The notes beneath the pieces were generated by a model. It had not been told where the DNA came from. It worked only from the letters and a program-made list of their open reading frames with translations, and searched no databases. Below, one piece after another: positions 9,094 through 58,380 of a stretch of 64,000 nucleotides of DNA (position 1 is the stretch's first letter; every line of letters begins with the position of its first letter). A program made the translations under genes and the position numbers. Origin of the DNA: Methanolobus vulcani (GTDB lineage Archaea; Halobacteriota; Methanosarcinia; Methanosarcinales; Methanosarcinaceae); the NCBI RefSeq assembly GCF_006546655.1, contig NZ_VIAQ01000012.1, forward strand, positions 124,001 through 188,000, read 5' to 3'.

Positions 9094-9975
9094 CTATGCT
9101 GTATCATAGCACTCTCCATTATGAGCACCTTCATTATTTACTTTAGTCTTTATCACGTTTCCGCTGGAATTATAGTCTTTCCAGACATCCTCAAGCAAAC
9201 CTGCCTGCTCGTCATTAACAAGCGCAACATATGAAGGGCCTGTTCCTGAAAGTGTTACACCTTCAACACCAATCTCAAGGGCACGCATCAGGAATTCTGT
9301 GTCAAAACCAAGGGCTCCGCAGTAAAGAAAACCGTTAAGTGTCATTGCCTTTTCAAAATTACCTTCCATCGAAAGGTCAAATGCCATGTCAACCCAGGGA
9401 GCTATCAGCCTTGAACGGCCTACATCAGTACCTGAGCTGAATGATTTTTTGTCAGGTGCAAATATCAGTACCTCATACTCGTGCTCTGTCCTTTTTAATA
9501 GTTCCATTGCCTTGTTGTCGGTTACTACAAAACCTCCATAAAAAGAAGCACATGCATCATCCAGAGCACCGGTTATTGTCACTTTTGAGTCAAGGGCAGC
9601 CCTTACACCCATTTTCACAATATCAAAAGGATCAAGTTCTTCACCTATAGCATCAAGAGTTGCAAGAATAGAAGAGTTTGCTGCTGCACTACTGCTTTTA
9701 AGGCCTCTTGCAAGAGGAACCTCTGATCTGGTAGTTACTGTACCACCCATTTCAATGCCAAAATGTTCAAGCACATATGATACAGATCTTTCAATAAGCT
9801 GAGTATCCGCATCAGGCATTCCCTGAATGGTACCATTTACAGAAGTAATATCATCCGTAAGCTCCACATCAGCAAATGTTTTCAGATCGACACCAAAAGC
9901 CGCACCTTTCCATGTGGCTATTGCGTTGATTACCGTACCTGCACCGAGTGCATAAGCACTTCCTTTTGCTACCAT
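9094..9975 (-). CDS. aroK: Archaeal shikimate kinase (GHMP superfamily)
   Basis: A 293-residue GHMP-type kinase that phosphorylates shikimate; archaea use this family in place of bacterial AroK/AroL. The start at 9975 gives MVAKGSAYALGAGTV, which aligns with the family N terminus. An upstream in-frame ATG would add 15 unrelated residues. The phosphate-binding motif PLARGLKSSSAAANS lies near residues 89-103, and VTLSGTGPSYVAL is the C-terminal GHMP motif. Chorismate mutase follows on the same strand. Confidence 0.92.
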   Translation of the reverse strand: MVAKGSAYALGAGTVINAIATWKGAAFGVDLKTFADVELTDDITSVNGTIQGMPDADTQLIERSVSYVLEHFGIEMGGTVTTRSEVPLARGLKSSSAAANSSILATLDAIGEELDPFDIVKMGVRAALDSKVTITGALDDACASFYGGFVVTDNKAMELLKRTEHEYEVLIFAPDKKSFSSGTDVGRSRLIAPWVDMAFDLSMEGNFEKAMTLNGFLYCGALGFDTEFLMRALEIGVEGVTLSGTGPSYVALVNDEQAGLLEDVWKDYNSSGNVIKTKVNNEGAHNGECYDTA

Positions 9976-10121
9976 AATGTGATTCCTGTTATTCTTAAAA
10001 AATCCAGAATGCAGAATCAAATATTATAACTCTGCAAAAGTCTGTATTTTACCCATACCAGTACTGTAAACTATTAAAGAATACTGTTTACAGGAATGAA
10101 AACAAAAATATTAGACATTAC

Positions 10122-10697
10122 TTAGGAATTGTTCTTTAGCCTTAGGATTGTGTCTTTTAGTCTATTGTAGCAAACCCTGTGTTTTTCTTCTAATTCCAGA
10201 GAATGATTCCCAGTTTTAAAGTCACTTTTCTTTGGTGCACCGCAAAGGCATTCGCCAAGTTTCTCTTTCATGTGTGCAGTACTACTATCATCTTCAGGCA
10301 ACAATTTCAGAATGAATTTACTGTTGTGTAAATCAGTTTCATCTTCTTTTAATAATTCTCCGCAGGAGTTAGAATACATCAGGACACCATTAGAGACCGG
10401 TCCATAGAACTTTATCTTCTCACAGGTCTCATTTTTGAGATGTTGAGGAGACTTGTAAACATTGTCATCCTGAAGTGTGACAAGCACCCTGAAATCTTTA
10501 CTTTTCTTGAGTCCTGGTGGAATTGTATCCGGATACAATACCCTTGGTTTCACGCCCATATGCTCAAGATCAGAAACAAGTTCTGATGATCTGGAATCAT
10601 CAACAACGATGATATCTTCTATCGCCTCATCTTCGGCCAGAATTCTGGCAATTTCTTTTTCGTATTCAATACATCCGATTATACTCATCAAAGGCAC
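10122..10697 (-). CDS. Uncharacterised protein, possibly DUF1638-like
   Basis: A 191-residue soluble protein. Its N-terminal half (SIIGCIEYEKEIARIL, then LVSDLEHMGVKPRVLYP) and a central GPVSNGVLMYSNSCGELL segment resemble DUF1638-type methanogen proteins, but I am not certain. It has Cys residues in IIGC, NSC and the pair in GECLCG. The likely start is GTG at 10697, 8 nt after GAGGAG; an in-frame ATG lies three codons later. Part of that ribosome binding site sits in a perfect inverted repeat (10708-10721). Confidence 0.5.
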   Translation of the reverse strand: MPLMSIIGCIEYEKEIARILAEDEAIEDIIVVDDSRSSELVSDLEHMGVKPRVLYPDTIPPGLKKSKDFRVLVTLQDDNVYKSPQHLKNETCEKIKFYGPVSNGVLMYSNSCGELLKEDETDLHNSKFILKLLPEDDSSTAHMKEKLGECLCGAPKKSDFKTGNHSLELEEKHRVCYNRLKDTILRLKNNS

Positions 10698-10707
10698 ATT
10701 CCCATCT

Positions 10708-10721
10708 CCTCATAAATGAGG
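10708..10721 (-). promoter_or_regulatory. Hairpin overlapping the ribosome binding site of the 10122-10697 gene
   Basis: CCTCAT and ATGAGG form a perfect 6-bp inverted repeat with a 2-nt spacer. In the minus-strand mRNA, the GAGG of the Shine-Dalgarno sequence is one arm of the hairpin, so folding could limit ribosome access. Confidence 0.4.
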
Positions 10722-10744
10722 GTATCACAAAAATATTGCAAAAA

Positions 10745-10759
10745 GATCGATGATCGATC
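10745..10759. promoter_or_regulatory. 15-bp inverted repeat, operator-like
   Basis: GATCGAT and ATCGATC are perfect 7-bp arms around a single G. The element lies about 48 bp upstream of the leftward gene at 10697 and on the far upstream side of the fmd operon. It is a candidate protein-binding site; nothing shows which gene it serves. Confidence 0.4.
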
Positions 10760-10801
10760 ACATAAGCTAAAAGCAAAAAATTTCGCAGACCAAATATATA
10801 C

Positions 10802-10838
10802 CCCATATATTATGGGATAGCTAGTAGTATATAAATCC
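10802..10838 (+). promoter_or_regulatory. Inverted repeat plus TATA box upstream of the fmd operon
   Basis: CCCATA and TATGGG (10802-10816, 3-nt spacer) form a perfect inverted repeat about 11 bp before a TATA-like GTATATAAAT (10829-10838). Transcription would start near 10862, which makes a leader of nearly 390 nt before fmdF. A second TATA-like CTTTTATAAC lies at about 10939-10948. The position of the repeat suits a regulator acting on the first promoter. Confidence 0.45.
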
Positions 10839-10907
10839 TGCGAAAAGTATGAAATTTATTAAAATATTTAGTATGAGTCAGAACCTATTGGCAGGTATAG
10901 TTGAAAA

Positions 10908-10938
10908 ATACAAACGATAACAACAGATACAAACGATA
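10908..10938 (+). repeat. Two direct copies of ATACAAACGATA before fmdF
   Basis: Exact 12-bp copies at 10908-10919 and 10927-10938 are spaced 19 bp start to start, and AAATACGAG follows nearby. They immediately precede the TATA-like element at 10939-10948, as activator or repressor sites would. Confidence 0.5.
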
Positions 10939-10948
10939 CTTTTATAAC

Positions 10949-11249
10949 AAATACGAGTCACTATATTTTACAATTCTCGACCCTATGGGCTGAGACATAA
11001 GTTAAGTGACACGATCATTGAGAATCAAGATTGTTAGCAAGTTTTCCGGAAGGCACTGTGCCTGACGGTACTTGTTGAAAAAGGCGTATTCATGCCCGCA
11101 AACACAAAAAGTGCTTGATTGAGAAATGTTCTTTAGTAGCCTCAGTAATACTGATATCTGCAGTCTTTTTTTGCAGAACCGCTGCAATCTTTCACAAGAC
11201 ATGACCTGGAAGCATTTGTACCTATAGGCAGGATTACGGAGAAGATCAA
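10949..11249 (+). promoter_or_regulatory. Long untranslated leader of the fmd operon with alternative hairpins and a T-run
   Basis: No convincing gene lies here. The RNA would contain several small hairpins: GGCA/TGCC near 11053-11063, CAGT/ACTG at 11143-11153, and TCTGCA/TGCAGA at 11157-11177. ACTG at 11150-11153 can pair either with CAGT at 11143-11146 or with CAGT at 11161-11164. The second pairing is followed at once by seven T residues (11166-11172), which would act as a terminator. This arrangement looks like attenuation. GGAGAAGATCAA before the ATG at 11250 is the fmdF ribosome binding site. Confidence 0.4.
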
Positions 11250-12269
11250 ATGAACGAAGTAGTGTTTGGAGTAAAAGACGACAAGCAACTTGAATACACT
11301 CCTGAGAAGTGTATCGGTTGCGGAACGTGCGTTATGGCATGTCCTAAAGGTTCATTAGTTATCGGTTCAGTAGGAGCCGTTACCAGAGGACTTATCGACA
11401 AAGATTTCCTTGAGAACCAGACAGATCTCTGCATATTATGCGGTATCTGTGCAAAGACATGCCCTACAGGTGCACTCGAACTGAAACAGGCCGGAGAGTC
11501 TGTAAATGACAATGCTCACATAAGCGTTGCACTTAAGGACACAACAGTCAATGACAACTGTGTACACTGCGGACTCTGTGAACAGATCTGTCCTCAGGGT
11601 TGCATTGAAGTCAAACAGTGGCTTTCCAACGATGGAACTGCCAGTGTTGGCGGTGAAACTATTATTGACACAGAATGTTGCATACACTGTGGATGGTGTG
11701 CAGAAGTCTGTCCTGCTGAAGCTATCAGCGTTGAAAAACCATTTGAAGGCACATGGGTTCAGGACGAAGACAAATGTACTGCTTGCCGCAGCTGTGTAGA
11801 TGTATGTCCATGCAATGCACTGTACAACCCGGACTGGGAAGCTGGTGAGAGAGTAAACAAGGTTGCACAGCGTGCAGATGCATGTATTTACTGTGGTGCA
11901 TGTGACATGGCATGCCCTGTTGAAGCTATTACTGTTACTAAGACAGCAATCCTTCCGGAAGTTGACAAGAAGACACTTCTTGAGAAGAAACTGCTAAATA
12001 AAGAAATGAAGAGACCTACACTTACATCAACACTTGTCATTGATGAAGATTCATGTCTTGGATGCGGAAACTGTGTAATTGTCTGTCCTGTAAATGCAAC
12101 CGACGATGAAGTTGGAGCAGGTTACCTTAATGAAGTCGATGCCAAGAAAGTCCTTGAAGTAAGAAATGGTGTGGCAAAGGTTGTCAACCAGGACCTCTGT
12201 GGTTCAGATGGTGCATGTGCTATGATCTGCCCGGTAGGTGCCATTACACTTGAGAAAAGGGAGGAATAA
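11250..12269 (+). CDS. fmdF: Formylmethanofuran dehydrogenase polyferredoxin subunit F
   Basis: A 339-residue polyferredoxin that carries electrons to or from the formylmethanofuran dehydrogenase core. Seven complete CxxCxxCxxxCP motifs are visible (CIGCGTC, CILCGIC, CVHCGLC, CIHCGWC, CTACRSC, CIYCGAC, CLGCGNC). An eighth reads CGSDGACAMICP, where Asp replaces the second Cys. Clusters pair as in 2[4Fe-4S] ferredoxins, so eight clusters are expected if Asp is a ligand. It is the first gene of a tight operon F-A-C-D-B, with fmdA starting 2 bp after its stop. The order matches the fmd (molybdenum-type) operons of Methanosarcina, but fmdE is not in front. Confidence 0.93.
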   Translation: MNEVVFGVKDDKQLEYTPEKCIGCGTCVMACPKGSLVIGSVGAVTRGLIDKDFLENQTDLCILCGICAKTCPTGALELKQAGESVNDNAHISVALKDTTVNDNCVHCGLCEQICPQGCIEVKQWLSNDGTASVGGETIIDTECCIHCGWCAEVCPAEAISVEKPFEGTWVQDEDKCTACRSCVDVCPCNALYNPDWEAGERVNKVAQRADACIYCGACDMACPVEAITVTKTAILPEVDKKTLLEKKLLNKEMKRPTLTSTLVIDEDSCLGCGNCVIVCPVNATDDEVGAGYLNEVDAKKVLEVRNGVAKVVNQDLCGSDGACAMICPVGAITLEKREE

Positions 12270-12271
12270 AA

Positions 12272-14026
12272 ATGGCAGGAACTATTGCAATCAAGAACGG
12301 TTATGTTTACGACCCGCTCAACGACATTAACGGCGAAATGATGGACATCTTCATCAAGGACGGAAAGGTTGTCACAGAACTTTCCGGCGCTGACATGAAA
12401 GATGTTAAGGAAATTGATGCAAAGGGCAAGACCGTTATGCCTGGTGGTGTTGACTCACACTCTCACGTAGCAGGAGCAAAGGTTAACGGCGGTAGAATGA
12501 TGAGGCCAGAGGACCATTACAAGTTCTACCAGAAGAAAACACCAATTACACACTCCGGTTGCGGATATACTGTACCATCAGTATATCTCGGAGGATATGA
12601 GTATTCCAAGATGGGATACACAACCGTCTTCGAGGCAGCTGTCCCACCAATGGAAGCACGCCACACACACGAGGAAATGCGCTCAACCCCTATGCTTGAC
12701 ATGGGTGGATATCTTGTACTGGGTAACAACTGGTTCCTTATGAGATACCTCAAGGAAGGAGATATCGACAAGGCAGCAGCATATATCGCATGGATGATGA
12801 AGACACACAAAACCTATGGTATAAAATGTGTCAACCCTGCCGGTGTAGAGAACTGGGGATGGGGAGAGAACATAGGTGCTCTTGATCAGGCAAACATTCA
12901 CTTTGAAACCACACCAGAGGACATGATTAAGGGACTCACAGAGCTTAACGAGAAGCTCGGTATCCCAATGCCAGTGCATCTGCACGCAAACAACCTTGGT
13001 CACCCTGGATGCTGGGAAATCACAAGGGACTCACTCAAGATACCAAAGAACGTCAAGGCAAAGCCAAATATGGATGTTGAGTGGGCAGAGACAAAGAAGA
13101 ACGCTAAGAGACACGAATCTGTCTACCTTACACACTGCCAGTTCAACGCTTTTGGCGGTACATCCTGGAGAGACTTTGAGTCCGGTGTAAAGGGAATCAC
13201 TGATTACGTCAACAGCAATGATCACGTTGTATTTGACAGTGGATGTGTACCATTTGGTGACGCAACAGTAATGACTGGTGACGGTCCTGCAATCCACGAC
13301 CTCTACGTACTCACAGGCCACAAGTGGTCAAACACAGATGTAGAGTGTGAGTGTGGTTCCGGTGTACTTCCATTCCTTTATCTGAAGGGTAACCCTGTAC
13401 ACAGTGTACAGTGGGCTATGGGTCTTGAATCACTTCTCTACGTCAAGGACGCATGGAAGACCATCATGACAACTGACAGTCCAAATGGTGGACCATTCAT
13501 CAAATACCCACAGGTAATTGCATGGCTCATGTCTAACAAAGCAAGACAGGACACATTTGCAGAATGTCACAAGTGGGCACAAGACAGAACTGGCCTGGGT
13601 GCAGAGACAAGGGAAATGGATCTCTTTGAGATCGCAACCATCACCCGTGCAAACCCTGCAAGAACAATCGGTATGTCATACAGAAAAGGTACCCTTGGTA
13701 TCGGTGCAGACGGTGACGTTGCAATTTATGACATTGATCCAAAGAGCCTCGAAGTTAACGACTACGAGAGTATCATAAGAGCATTCGAGAATGCTGCATA
13801 CACCATCAAGGCAGGAGAAGTTGTCTCCCAGATGGGTGAGATCGTAGCAATTCCGGAGAAGAACACATTCTACTCTGATATCGCAACAGATGAAGATGCA
13901 GAGAAGAGCATGCTTGCGGATGTAAAGAAGTGGTTCAAGTACTACACACTTGGTTTCGACAGATATCCAACACCTGAAAAGTACCTGGCAAACCCAACAC
14001 CGATTCAGGTCAAAGCGGAGAAGTGA
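12272..14026 (+). CDS. fmdA: Formylmethanofuran dehydrogenase subunit A (metallo-amidohydrolase)
   Basis: A 584-residue amidohydrolase-fold subunit that interconverts formate plus methanofuran and formylmethanofuran at a dinuclear metal site. It has the HxH motif DSHSHVAGAK near residues 62-70, the candidate carboxylated Lys in GIKCVNP, later metal-ligand His residues (VHLHANN, THCQ) and the catalytic Asp in TTDSPNGG. Full length for the family. It sits between fmdF (2 bp upstream) and fmdC. Codon use is richer in G/C-ending codons than in most flanking genes, as expected for a highly expressed enzyme. Confidence 0.96.
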   Translation: MAGTIAIKNGYVYDPLNDINGEMMDIFIKDGKVVTELSGADMKDVKEIDAKGKTVMPGGVDSHSHVAGAKVNGGRMMRPEDHYKFYQKKTPITHSGCGYTVPSVYLGGYEYSKMGYTTVFEAAVPPMEARHTHEEMRSTPMLDMGGYLVLGNNWFLMRYLKEGDIDKAAAYIAWMMKTHKTYGIKCVNPAGVENWGWGENIGALDQANIHFETTPEDMIKGLTELNEKLGIPMPVHLHANNLGHPGCWEITRDSLKIPKNVKAKPNMDVEWAETKKNAKRHESVYLTHCQFNAFGGTSWRDFESGVKGITDYVNSNDHVVFDSGCVPFGDATVMTGDGPAIHDLYVLTGHKWSNTDVECECGSGVLPFLYLKGNPVHSVQWAMGLESLLYVKDAWKTIMTTDSPNGGPFIKYPQVIAWLMSNKARQDTFAECHKWAQDRTGLGAETREMDLFEIATITRANPARTIGMSYRKGTLGIGADGDVAIYDIDPKSLEVNDYESIIRAFENAAYTIKAGEVVSQMGEIVAIPEKNTFYSDIATDEDAEKSMLADVKKWFKYYTLGFDRYPTPEKYLANPTPIQVKAEK

Positions 14027-14031
14027 TTTTA

Positions 14032-14841
14032 ATGGCAGACGTAATTCTTAAACCAACGGGAAATTTTGACCTTACCGTTGAGGCAGAGGTCATCACACCT
14101 GACAACTTTGCCGGTAAAAGTGCCGATGAGATTGGAAAATTGCTCGTCTGGCAGGGTCCTGAAGAGTTACCACTTGCAAACTTCTTTTCAGTAGAAGGCA
14201 ATGGTGGAAACTCAGCAGAAGACACAACCATCATCATAGACGGGGATGTCTCAAGGGTCAAGCGTATAGGACAGGAAATGACTGCCGGAAAGATCCTTGT
14301 AAAAGGCAGCGTAGGCATGCACACAGGATCCACAATGAGCGGCGGAGAGATCGTTGTTGAAGGCGACTCCGAATCATGGGCAGGCATGGACATGACAGGC
14401 GGTTCCATCCACATTAAAGGAAATGCAAAGGACCATATTGGCAGTGCATATCGTGGAAGCTGGGAAGGAATGACCGGCGGACGTATCACAATAGATGGTG
14501 ACGCAGTCAGCCAGATCGGTGGCGGCCTTAGTGGTGGAGAGATCATAATCGGCGGCAGTGTAAAACACTTCTGCGGAATCCGCATCAACGGTGGTCTCAT
14601 CTATGTAAAAGGAAACGCTTTCAGAACTGTCGGAGCTGAGATGACCGGCGGTACCATTGTTATCGGAGGCTGCATTGAGAGATTCTTGCCAGGATTTACA
14701 ATGGAAGGCGTAGAATCCGACCTCAAGTTCAACGATATCGAGTGTCCCGGAGAATACAAGAAGTTCACAGGCGACTATGCCATCCCACAGAAAGGAAAAG
14801 GCACAATGTACGTATCCTGTGACAACAACGAGTGTCTGTGA
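14032..14841 (+). CDS. fmdC: Formylmethanofuran dehydrogenase subunit C
   Basis: A 269-residue subunit made largely of Gly-rich repeats (MSGGEIVVEG, MTGGSIHIKG, MTGGRITIDG, LSGGEIIIGG, INGGLIYVKG, MTGGTIVIGG). These form the right-handed beta-helix shared with the GltB C-terminal domain, which in the known enzyme packs against subunits A and B/D. The start is placed at ATG 14032, after the GGAGAAGTGAT that overlaps the fmdA stop. An in-frame codon 9 bp earlier overlaps fmdA and is less likely. Confidence 0.94.
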   Translation: MADVILKPTGNFDLTVEAEVITPDNFAGKSADEIGKLLVWQGPEELPLANFFSVEGNGGNSAEDTTIIIDGDVSRVKRIGQEMTAGKILVKGSVGMHTGSTMSGGEIVVEGDSESWAGMDMTGGSIHIKGNAKDHIGSAYRGSWEGMTGGRITIDGDAVSQIGGGLSGGEIIIGGSVKHFCGIRINGGLIYVKGNAFRTVGAEMTGGTIVIGGCIERFLPGFTMEGVESDLKFNDIECPGEYKKFTGDYAIPQKGKGTMYVSCDNNECL

Positions 14842-14851
14842 GGTGATATTC

Positions 14852-15241
14852 ATGGAAGCATTACTCAATACAGGTAGTACAATCGATGAAGGAAGACTTG
14901 CAAAAGGCGGAAGCAAGTACACCGATGACTACACAAAGGAATGTGCAGTCTGCTGGATGTGTGCAGAAGACTTTACATCCCTTGGCTGCCCGGAGAAAGT
15001 GGCAGTTATATCAAGAGATAGAAAATATTCAGTTGCACTTAGCACAAAAGTAACTGAAGCAATGAGATCAGGTCAGGTATTCATACCAAGGTCCATCTGG
15101 GCAAATGTAGTTGTTGAGCCTGACACATTCTCAACCGGTTCACCACGTTACAAGGGAAGCCCTGTTTTTGTTGAACCTACTGACGACGTAATCCTCAGCG
15201 CTGAGGAACTTGTCACAAAGATGTACATGGGAGGTAAATAA
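14852..15241 (+). CDS. fmdD: Formylmethanofuran dehydrogenase subunit D
   Basis: A 129-residue subunit equivalent to the C-terminal molybdopterin-dinucleotide-binding domain of formate-dehydrogenase-type enzymes, encoded separately. The start at 14852 follows GAGGTGAT, which overlaps the fmdC stop; the open frame extends further upstream into fmdC but those codons are not family sequence. The central part (CAVCWMCAED, then IPRSIWANVVVEPDTFSTGSPRYKG) is typical. It ends immediately before fmdB. Confidence 0.92.
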   Translation: MEALLNTGSTIDEGRLAKGGSKYTDDYTKECAVCWMCAEDFTSLGCPEKVAVISRDRKYSVALSTKVTEAMRSGQVFIPRSIWANVVVEPDTFSTGSPRYKGSPVFVEPTDDVILSAEELVTKMYMGGK

Positions 15242-15242
15242 A

Positions 15243-16556
15243 ATGGTCTACAAGAACATTATCTGCCCGGTTTGCGGAGGTTCATGTGACGATGTTCAGG
15301 TGAATCTGGATAAGGAAAACGGTACGATAGATGTCCAGAATGCATGTAAAATGGGTTCTGCCAAGTTCAAGGAAGTCGTAAGCTCACACAGACTCCTGAA
15401 ACCAACCATCAGAGAAAATGGTAAGGTAAAGGACGTAAGCTGGGATGAAGCACTTGAAATGGCAGCAGATATCCTTGTAAATGCAAAGAAGCCATTCTTC
15501 TTCCTTGGAAGCGAAACAGCATGTGAAGCACAGGAAGTAGGACTTCATATTGCTGAATACCTTGGTGGACTTGCAGATTCAAATGCAACTATCTGCCATG
15601 GACCAACTGTCATGGGTATTCAGGAATCCGGTATGGTCGGAGCTACAGCCGGTCAGGCAAAGAACAGAGCCGACATGATAGTATACTGGGGTGTCAATGC
15701 ACTGGAATCCATGCCAAGACACATGTCAAGGTACGGTGTGTTCCCAAGAGGATACTGGACTAAGAGAGGAAGATTCGACAGAACCATGATGACAGTGGAC
15801 CCAAGGGTAACACCTACAGCCGCTGCATCTGACCTGCATCTTCAGCTTAATCCTAACACAGACTACGAGCTTCTCAGCGCACTGTTCACAATCCTGAACG
15901 GCAAAGAGCCACATCCATCTGTTGAAGAGATCACAGGAATCCCAATTTCAGTGATGAAGCAGACAGTTGAGATGATGAAGGAATCAAACTTCGTAGCTAT
16001 CTACGTAGGTCTTGGTGTTTCATCCTCATACGGTAAACACAGAAACATTGAGATTGCACTGAACTTCGTCAAGGAAATGAATAACTACACCAAGTGTAAC
16101 ATCGGTGCTCTTAGAGGTCACTGTAACGTAGCAGGATTCAACCAGCTTGCATCCTATCTCTATGGTTACCCATTCGGTCTTGACTTCACAAAGGGATACC
16201 CAAGGTACAACCCTGGGGAGACAACCTGTGTGGACCTGCTCAGGGAAAAGGATGTTGACGCAGCATTTGTTATGTGTGCAGACCTGATGGACCATATTCC
16301 TGCAGACAGTGCACAGTACCTCGCAGATATTCCAATGATCTGCCTGGACATTGCACCATGTCCATCAACCACAGCAGCAGACGTAGTTCTGCCTGGTGTA
16401 ATTGATGCTATGGAATGTGATGGTACATTCTACAGGCTTGACAATGTGCCTGTATACTTCGAGCCATTCACAGATTCCCCATTCACCGAAACAAAGAGCA
16501 ATGAGGACACCCTTAAGCAGCTCTTTGCAAAGGTAAAGGCTAAAAAGGAAGCATGA
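15243..16556 (+). CDS. fmdB: Formylmethanofuran dehydrogenase subunit B (molybdopterin catalytic subunit)
   Basis: A 437-residue catalytic subunit carrying the pterin-metal centre that reduces CO2 to formate. The start at 15243 gives MVYKNIICPVCGGSCDDVQV, with a short Cys cluster for the [4Fe-4S] centre. ATICHGPTVMG holds the expected metal-ligand Cys as a normal Cys codon, not selenocysteine. LVNAKKPFFFLGSET and later AALRGHCNVAG-type segments fit molybdopterin oxidoreductases. Metal preference (Mo or W) cannot be read from sequence; operon order suggests the Mo type. The stop overlaps fdhD by 4 bp (ATGA). Confidence 0.94.
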   Translation: MVYKNIICPVCGGSCDDVQVNLDKENGTIDVQNACKMGSAKFKEVVSSHRLLKPTIRENGKVKDVSWDEALEMAADILVNAKKPFFFLGSETACEAQEVGLHIAEYLGGLADSNATICHGPTVMGIQESGMVGATAGQAKNRADMIVYWGVNALESMPRHMSRYGVFPRGYWTKRGRFDRTMMTVDPRVTPTAAASDLHLQLNPNTDYELLSALFTILNGKEPHPSVEEITGIPISVMKQTVEMMKESNFVAIYVGLGVSSSYGKHRNIEIALNFVKEMNNYTKCNIGALRGHCNVAGFNQLASYLYGYPFGLDFTKGYPRYNPGETTCVDLLREKDVDAAFVMCADLMDHIPADSAQYLADIPMICLDIAPCPSTTAADVVLPGVIDAMECDGTFYRLDNVPVYFEPFTDSPFTETKSNEDTLKQLFAKVKAKKEA

Positions 16557-17380
16557 GTGAACACTGGTACTCAGAAAGGAAAGGGAAGGATGAAACCTTC
16601 CGAACGGACGAGGAAAGTATTTCCACTCCATTTTATGTCCCGATAGAGTGCCTGGAGATCACTGAGAACAGTAAACAACACATTACTGTGGACGTTATTG
16701 TCGAAGAAAAGTTCGAACTTTTCGTGAATAACGTTCACGTAACTACTTTTTTTGCAAGCCCCTATGAACTTGAAGAGCTTGCACTGGGATTTCTCGTCTG
16801 CGAGGGATTCATTGAACCTGACACGGCGGTTGATTCCATAAAGATTGAAAATAAGTCTATTTTCTGTGAAATTAAAATTAACACTCCTGAACTGGAGGAA
16901 CTCACCCATCTAGAACGATGCGGAACAACATCATACCGCAAAGATGTCATCAAACACATTAATTCTGATACTAAATTCACTACTGATGCAATTTCTCATG
17001 CTGTTGGCCAGTTGAAAGAACTTGGAAGAGCATGGCACAGTACCGGCGGTGCACACACATCTATTATCTACAACAACCAGGGAGAAGTGCTCTTTTTCTG
17101 TGAGGACGTGGGGCGAGCATGCTCTGTGGACAAGGTTGTTGGAAAAGCCCTGATGAATGGTGTTAATCTTTCTGAATGCGCTCTGGCGACCACCGGCAGG
17201 CTGGCATCTACCATGGTGTCAAAGGCTATGAATGCTGGAATTCCTCTTATTTCAAGTAAGGGTGCCACGGTTCGTGAGTCTGTTGAACTGGCTGATAAGG
17301 CAGGTATGACACTTGTGGCTTTTGTGAGGGGGAAGAATTTGTACGTGTATGCCGGAGAAGAAAGAGTGATTATTGATTAA
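16553..17380 (+). CDS. fdhD: FdhD-family sulfurtransferase for molybdopterin enzyme maturation
   Basis: A 275-residue FdhD homologue, which passes sulfur to the Mo/W-bis(pterin) cofactor before insertion into formate-dehydrogenase-type enzymes. ELEELALGFLVCEGFI, HLERCGTTSY, HSTGGAHTS and FCEDVGRACSVDKVVGKAL are characteristic. The region matching the E. coli CxxC persulfide loop has only one Cys (ERCGTTS). Coupling to fmdB by an ATGA overlap strongly suggests that it matures the formylmethanofuran dehydrogenase. Confidence 0.92.
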   Translation: MSEHWYSERKGKDETFRTDEESISTPFYVPIECLEITENSKQHITVDVIVEEKFELFVNNVHVTTFFASPYELEELALGFLVCEGFIEPDTAVDSIKIENKSIFCEIKINTPELEELTHLERCGTTSYRKDVIKHINSDTKFTTDAISHAVGQLKELGRAWHSTGGAHTSIIYNNQGEVLFFCEDVGRACSVDKVVGKALMNGVNLSECALATTGRLASTMVSKAMNAGIPLISSKGATVRESVELADKAGMTLVAFVRGKNLYVYAGEERVIID

Positions 17381-56638: not shown

Positions 56639-56876
56639 ATTTATTCACCTAAGTTTCATTTCTAGTTTCACGGTTCAGCTCTTGTATGCTTTTACATTAC
56701 AAAAACTACATTCCCACGGGACTAATCCCGGCAATGAAACAGGACTACTACTTAACCCTATTGAATTTAAACCTTTGCACAATTTAGAGATAAAAATACA
56801 AAAATCAAACAGATAAATGTAAATTTATATAATGTTGGCACTGTATTCTAGTAAAGAGAATTTCCAGAGGAAAAAG

Positions 56877-58183: not shown

Positions 58184-58380
58184 TGGGGTTGGTGAGATTC
58201 GAACTCACGATCGACGGGTCTCTCCGAACAGCTGTAAAAAACAGCTATAGTTCTCATGAGCACACATCAGTGCTCCAACGGCTCCTCACAAACCAACCCC
58301 GTCGGGTTAGTCTCAGTAGACCCGTTGTTCATCATTTATCCGCTGGAGCCCATCGCCATGCCGGGCTAGGCCACAACCCC
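58184..58380 (-). tRNA. tRNA-Trp(CCA) with a 123-nt intron
   Basis: Exon 1 is 58380-58343 and exon 2 is 58219-58184. The acceptor pairs GGGGTTG with CAACCCC with discriminator A; the D arm is GCC/GGC; the anticodon stem is ATGGG/CCCGT; the T arm is GTGAG/CTCAC with loop TTCGAAT. The loop CTCCAGA gives anticodon CCA (58346-58344). The intron is removed at a bulge-helix-bulge: 4-bp helix CTCC/GGAG with 3-nt bulges AGC and AGA, each cut after AG. CCA is not encoded. A TATA-like CTAAATATAT (58421-58430, minus strand) lies upstream. Confidence 0.95.
58220..58342 (-). ncRNA. Box C/D guide RNA within the tRNA-Trp intron
   Basis: The intron holds box C ATGATGA (58335-58329), D' CTGA (58316-58313), C' GTGAGGA (58289-58283) and D CTGA (58270-58267). 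Counting five nucleotides upstream of D' gives nucleotide C39 of the tRNA, and the same rule at D gives C34. Methylation at 34 and 39 is the known function of this intron in Haloferax and other Euryarchaeota. An extra hairpin AGCTG/CAGCT near the 3' end lies outside the C/D core. Confidence 0.88.

Follow-up and report, generated by a model that had tools for sequence, protein, structure and literature searches.

To our knowledge, few natural cis-regulatory RNAs have been characterised in archaea. In the translational riboswitches SAM-II, SMK/SAM-III and preQ1-II, the closing helix uses bases of the Shine-Dalgarno sequence, while the Moco RNA motif is located upstream of bacterial molybdenum-cofactor genes. 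The methanosarcinal CODH/ACS operon, a C1-pathway operon like fmd, has a likewise long, untranslated leader and is reported to be regulated through its 5′ UTR (PMC3600222). In Methanolobus psychrophilus, 24% of the mRNAs with mapped starts carry a 5′ UTR of more than 150 nt, and the long 5′ UTRs of mtaA and mtaC in a cold-adaptive methanogen are stated in the introduction of the same paper to contribute to their transcripts (PMC5378194), the main text of which does not mention fmd. Expression of fmd is substrate-dependent in Methanosarcina acetivorans, for which leaders of 51-137 nt have been described in other operons, the passages on transcript starts including none for fmd (PMC2838876). Among titles and abstract openings in the open-licence literature, no paper was found that concerns this fmd leader. 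Here, we focus on this leader, which is apparently a real, structured and so far undescribed RNA.

Locus organisation and promoter regions

The window analysed in this study is a 64-kb stretch of a Methanolobus genome, whose same-genus relatives include M. bombayensis, M. vulcani and M. profundi. In this window, fmdF (11250-12269, plus strand) leads the operon fmdFACDB-fdhD (11250-17380), with fmdA, fmdC, fmdD, fmdB and fdhD following in that order, and this operon is the one for formylmethanofuran dehydrogenase, a key enzyme of the methane pathway. A second fmdB-type gene is present on contig C9 of the same genome, which means that at least one further isoenzyme exists beside the one served by the leader. 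Comparisons were made across 111 genomes of the family, including 27 of Methanolobus and six of a sister genus (g11; L028-L030 and L035-L037) that is probably Methanomethylovorans, one member of which is labelled Methanococcoides sp.

In all 27 Methanolobus and all six sister-genus genomes, fmdF is preceded by an untranslated leader about 280 nt long. The predicted fmd promoter (10927-10948, plus strand) consists of a 12-mer containing the BRE-like AAACGATA and the TATA element TTTTATAAC (10940-10948), and its conserved form, TTTATAACA, recurs in every Methanolobus (27/27) and every sister-genus (6/6) locus, with 252-352 nt from TATA to ATG. This block ranks among the most conserved stretches of the alignment, and AAACGATA is exact ahead of TATA in 26 of the 27 Methanolobus loci, the exception being L014 with GAACGATA. 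Transcription is predicted to start at 10966-10970 (plus strand), about 25-29 nt past the TATA start and shortly before a hairpin, Ha, that begins at 10975, and the leader is probably transcribed into RNA. The long leader from a far-upstream promoter proposed in the initial annotation is retained. A helix GUCACU/AGUGAC (10957-10962/11005-11010) was set aside as probably lying upstream of the transcript start.

The 12-mer ATACAAACGATA occurs in two exact copies, at 10908-10919 and 10927-10938 (plus strand), with no further copy in the 64 kb when one mismatch is allowed, 0.37 copies being expected and at least two being seen in 7 of 100 shuffles. Both of the repeats previously noted before the second TATA element thus exist, but the upstream copy is confined to close relatives and not conserved across the genus, two exact copies being found in just 2 of 30 loci. 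The downstream copy, which alone of the two is general, is the BRE-like part of the predicted fmd promoter.

A divergent orphan gene (10122-10697, minus strand; 191 aa), whose product has no match in Pfam or NCBIfam, is matched by a homologue in the corresponding position of each of the 27 Methanolobus loci, whereas the three sister-genus loci scanned have none. In those three loci, the GHMP kinase gene (window 9094-10020) seems by eye to be the next gene directly, without the divergent gene. The divergent gene is fast-evolving, with at least 32% identity across the 27 Methanolobus loci. An operator-like inverted repeat at a TATA box upstream of fmdF, as reported earlier, does exist: CCCATA..TATGGG (10799-10819, assigned to the minus strand), with arms at 10799-10807 and 10811-10819 (9 nt, 89%), located 7 nt ahead of a first TATA element, GTATATAAA (10827-10835; TTTATATAC on the minus strand, its presumed orientation). 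In a scan of 30 loci (27 Methanolobus and three of the six sister-genus loci), however, the strict repeat pattern tracked the divergent gene, being present in 24/27 and 0/3, respectively, and the first TATA element is distributed like the repeat and the gene. The minus-strand block at this element reads TCGGTGATTTTATATAC in many species and resembles the fmd promoter ACGATACTTTTATAAC, while the repeat would lie over the predicted start of the divergent gene. Given the shared distribution, the likeness to the fmd promoter and this position, the repeat and the first TATA element most probably serve the divergent gene and not fmd.

A conserved leader and its paired core

A DNA search of the 111 family genomes returned leader matches in all 27 Methanolobus genomes and 13 others, mostly short. 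In the alignment, conservation is concentrated in islands comprising the promoter, GGCGUAUUCAUGCC (11083-11096), the arms of a helix termed P2, and AGGCAGGAUUACGGAG ahead of the ATG. A covariance model of the core, built from 15 leaders, gave exactly one match per genome in 27/27 Methanolobus, with scores of at least 52.9 bits and always before fmdF, whereas the other 84 genomes yielded three weak matches, two in sister-genus fmdF leaders (E =.034 and.050) and one at an unrelated place (E =.08). A leader without conservation had been named beforehand as evidence against the proposal; the DNA search, the alignment and the covariance model all find the leader conserved, and the proposal withstands this check. 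The leader is probably a functional RNA element in Methanolobus.

Neither in the window nor at the 12 loci run did the fmd leader match a family of Rfam, and the Moco RNA motif gave no hit in window 10100-12000 with E allowed up to 5, or in the 12 loci with E allowed up to 1. Elsewhere in the window, an eL15-Euryarchaeota ribosomal protein leader scores over its gathering threshold at 56667-56730 (minus strand), and a tRNA match at 58184-58380 (minus strand), presumably tRNA-Trp, encloses a C/D-box sR3 match at 58265-58339, which places a box C/D RNA within the intron of a tRNA. An N-terminal extension or conserved upstream ORF starting from the ATG in GUAUUCAUGCC was considered and rejected because its spacing from fmdF falls into all three reading frames among the leaders, the peptides differ in length and the ATG is missing in L026.

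Whole-leader folding energy in the window is unremarkable (z = -1.48 and -1.65). Hairpin Ha (10975-10995, plus strand), at the 5′ end of the leader, was identified from shuffles and from its recurrence across leaders: its core stem lies inside TATA+31 to +60 in all 27 Methanolobus leaders, with differing stem sequences, and falls below 0.05 against dinucleotide shuffles in 24 of them (exceptions L002, L017 and L027), while it was found in 0/6 sister-genus leaders. A second hairpin, Hc (11034-11078, plus strand), recognised by its folding against shuffles, lies just 5′ of the conserved core and is below 0.05 in 18/27 Methanolobus leaders.

The core contains three nested helices, all on the plus strand. 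P2 pairs AAGUGCUU (11109-11116) with AAGCAUUU (11210-11217). P3 pairs AUGU (11126-11129) with ACAU (11199-11202) and, depending on the lineage, appears as AUGU/ACAU, CGUU/AACG or UUUC/GAAA. P4 pairs AGUAG (11135-11139) with CCGCU (11179-11183), with one A.C mismatch in the window genome, and takes the forms AGUGG/CCGCU or AGCAG/CUGCU, ACGGAU/AUCCGU and GUGGAC/GUCCAC in different lineages. It is topped by an apical hairpin CUGCA/UGCAG (11158-11176), the loop of which is not conserved. All counts for P2-P4 refer to 26 of the 27 Methanolobus leaders and to no sister-genus leaders, L026 being left out for its shorter leader without these helices. L026 (genome G053) is a natural deletion variant with 252 nt from TATA to ATG, which retains Ha, an Hc-like hairpin and both elements of the long-range helix P1 described below.

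Both-side changes occur at 4/4 pairs of P3, which shows standard pairing in 26/26 leaders, and at 5/5 pairs of P4, which is 89% paired. As a null, the observed substitutions were re-placed randomly on a tree of fmdF coding DNA in 2000 replicates; two lineages had their registers fixed manually after inspection, a step that concerns about one lineage each and that the null does not cover. The observed paired fractions of 1.00 for P3 and 0.89 for P4 compare with null values of 0.67 and 0.61, and 0/2000 replicates were as high in either case. For P2, the paired fraction is ordinary (667/2000 replicates), and the number of both-side changed cells is unusual (22/2000). Unguided duplex tests of P3/P4, run on 12 of the 26 leaders, are a fairer but weaker support than the tree null: p was.006 in L015,.014 in L027,.02 in L020,.021 in L023 and.029 in L016, followed by.053 in L025,.068 in L008,.078 in L019 and.082 in L011, with no unguided support in L013 (.12), L017 (.24) or L001, the window leader (.56). 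In L015, L016 and L020, which belong to separate lineages, P3/P4 is the best duplex even without guidance. Within the closest group, covariation was not above shuffles (90/500), and whole-leader ensembles often lack P2-P4, the P2 probability exceeding 0.5 in 3/26 leaders. As predicted helices, P3 and P4 stay paired through lineage sequence changes, and P2 does so more weakly; covariation-backed structure in the leader accordingly comprises P3 and P4, in hand-set registers, and Ha. Within L020-L025, invariance extends to the core's 3′ half (GAAACAACCTTACAAAGCATGTGGA) and goes further than the helices require. A pairing of GGCAGG with the apical UCUGC, seen by eye, is lost in several leaders and is not claimed.

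A candidate exchange at the ribosome site and its rivals

Two near-invariant, complementary sequences, CGUAUUCAUGCC (11085-11096) and GGCAGGAUUACG (11227-11238), flank the core domain. The former is part of the 5′ element GGCGUAUUCAUGCC (11083-11096, plus strand), which can form either the local hairpin GGCGU/AUGCC or the 5′ arm of P1; the latter is the 3′ arm of P1 within the 3′ element GGCAGGAUUACGGAG (11227-11241, plus strand) and ends in the first G of the Shine-Dalgarno sequence GGAG (11238-11241). GGCAGGAUUACG is unchanged in 31/33 leaders of the two genera, the sole change being T to C in L023 and L024. The complementarity has p = 0.026 for the 14-mer against base-shuffled versions, and CGUAUUCAUGCC is the best duplex partner of GGCAGGAUUACG in 25/27 Methanolobus leaders (exceptions L004 and L024), forming a duplex of 10 pairs with U.U and A.G mismatches and one pair fewer in L026. 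In four of the six sister-genus leaders, the best partner of GGCAGGAUUACG is another 5′ sequence (UCUGU..GCC), which is similarly spaced and reaches the GGA of the Shine-Dalgarno sequence. The local hairpin GGCGU-AUUC-AUGCC has -4.2 kcal/mol in 24/27 Methanolobus leaders; it is absent in L017 and weaker in L026 and L027.

As the local hairpin and P1 are mutually exclusive, the layout is switch-like, and since this conserved pairing adjoins the ribosome-binding site, it points to translation rather than termination. We therefore propose a cis-acting structured leader RNA, expressed from the promoter at 10927-10948, that may control fmdF translation by exchange between P1 and the local hairpin, and we put the probability of this reading at about 0.45. 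In the first state, the P2-P4 domain would draw CGUAUUCAUGCC onto GGCAGGAUUACG, so that P1 adjoins and partly covers the GGAG; in the second, the 5′ element would fold on itself (GGCGU-AUUC-AUGCC) and leave the ribosome site freer. A metabolite or protein might tip the balance between the two, candidate effectors being the Mo/W-pterin cofactor, molybdate or tungstate, a C1 carrier, or the enzyme itself. If the leader does switch, the matching of the enzyme to metal, cofactor or carbon supply could be tested at one RNA, which is short enough for direct reporter-fusion work.

A translational switch is the best reading but an undemonstrated one, because P1 lacks covariation, is often equalled in strength in shuffled leaders and is mostly disfavoured by computed ensembles. 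Among 260 cells of P1, the only change is C-G to U-G (L017 and L027). Tested against shuffled leaders in four of the 27 Methanolobus and four of the six sister-genus leaders, the strength of P1 gave p =.34,.11,.21 and.70 in the former and.33,.034,.044 and.67 in the latter. Ensembles mostly favour the local hairpin, with P1 probability above 0.5 in 3/27 leaders and below 0.15 in 22/27, and the Shine-Dalgarno sequence is not clearly masked (unpaired 0.11-0.91).

These results could be accommodated, though on balance we find this somewhat unlikely, if the leader merely set mRNA stability or basal translation through a 5′ hairpin shield and a long UTR, with no switch. Ha, at the extreme 5′ end, is indeed the most uniformly kept helix, and long 5′ UTRs are usual in M. 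psychrophilus (PMC5378194); a passive leader of this kind would, however, leave unexplained the kept P3/P4 domain as well as a pair of near-invariant, mutually complementary elements separated by 130 nt, of which one sits at the Shine-Dalgarno sequence. Conserved letters beside helices and the single-locus distribution would fit equally well a binding site for a protein, either an Fmd subunit acting autogenously or another RNA-binding protein, in place of a small-molecule switch or a passive leader, but no candidate protein emerged, and we regard this as improbable. Control at the DNA level only, with the conserved blocks as operators and an incidental leader, might draw on the highly conserved promoter block and on palindromes upstream of fmdE in Methanosarcina-type loci; it is very unlikely, since the conserved core lies about 115-270 nt 3′ of the predicted start and P3/P4 preserve pairing rather than sequence.

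Runs of T can terminate archaeal transcription, and the window leader does contain seven T (11166-11172), but these lie in and at the loop end of the apical hairpin CUGCA/UGCAG rather than after a stem. Runs of at least six T occur in this variable loop in 6/27 Methanolobus leaders, the others having 3-4, and runs of at least seven are common, with 18 on both strands of the 64-kb window. ACTG is present at 11150-11153 with a CAGT partner in CTGCAGTC, and this partner is found in 1/27 Methanolobus leaders. A terminator scan of the plus strand of the leader found none. A transcription attenuator in which the U7 run would act as terminator and ACTG would supply the alternative pairing thus deserves almost no credence and was rejected, even though early termination is one of the two mechanisms suggested for the CODH/ACS leader (PMC3600222), because the run sits in the loop and neither it nor the CAGT partner is conserved. 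Of the roughly 300 nt that the initial annotation saw as foldable into alternative hairpins with a switch-like layout, the conserved structure and the mutually exclusive foldings remain, located at 11083-11096 versus 11227-11238 and not at the T-run and ACTG pairings it had named.

FmdE and comparison with known systems

The distribution of the leader shows a clear evolutionary contrast, as it stands where FmdE is missing. When FmdE from L040, a member of genus g10 (probably Methanohalophilus), served as query with E up to 1e-20, an FmdE-like protein was found in 53/111 family genomes from eight genera, in each of which at least one fetched locus has fmdE directly upstream of fmdF. At the same threshold, none was found in the 27 Methanolobus and six sister-genus genomes, and the FmdE paralogues of the window genome are just 28-29% identical. 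For FmdE-family proteins with a zinc finger, roles in regulation, RNA binding or metal sensing have been proposed. The conserved folding of the leader as far as the ribosome-binding site suggests a so far undescribed RNA-based control element at a place that a protein-coding gene occupies in related genera, and one may speculate that the leader took over regulation once exerted by FmdE. A stronger version, in which an archaeal riboswitch class in Methanolobus and perhaps the sister genus would sense the Mo/W-pterin cofactor, the metal or a C1 intermediate, stop Fmd translation by a helix at the ribosome-binding site and take the regulatory place of the lost FmdE, seems to us distinctly improbable.

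In Methanosarcina, Methanococcoides and related genera, the same operon has the form fmdE-fmdFACDB, with the same ACGGAG context before fmdF in several genera, but fmdE takes the place of the Methanolobus leader there, and leader and fmdE share no significant nucleotide similarity. A profile search against fmdE loci for a leader derived from decayed fmdE gave nothing below E = 2.9, reversed controls behaving alike, and such an origin is not claimed, since the likeness is limited to the last bases before the Shine-Dalgarno sequence. Most of the FmdE-bearing loci L053, L056 and L058-L074, mainly of Methanosarcina type, have palindromes of the form GTTATGTT-N5/6-AACATA upstream of fmdE, several with two copies about 85 bp apart; we take these to resemble ModE operators. 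No clear palindrome like those of the FmdE-bearing genera is present in the Methanolobus fmd promoter.

Compared with described leader RNAs, the fmd leader resembles the Moco RNA motif in being associated with a Mo/W-pterin enzyme operon but has no Moco match. It differs from the methanosarcinal CODH/ACS leader in the operon served and in the likely mechanism, early termination or endonuclease action being suggested there (PMC3600222) and pairing at the Shine-Dalgarno sequence being proposed here. Although, unlike SAM-II, SMK/SAM-III and preQ1-II, it is without a known ligand, an Rfam match or P1 covariation, its predicted architecture has in common with these riboswitches a closing helix whose 3′ strand abuts the Shine-Dalgarno sequence and a local hairpin that competes with it.
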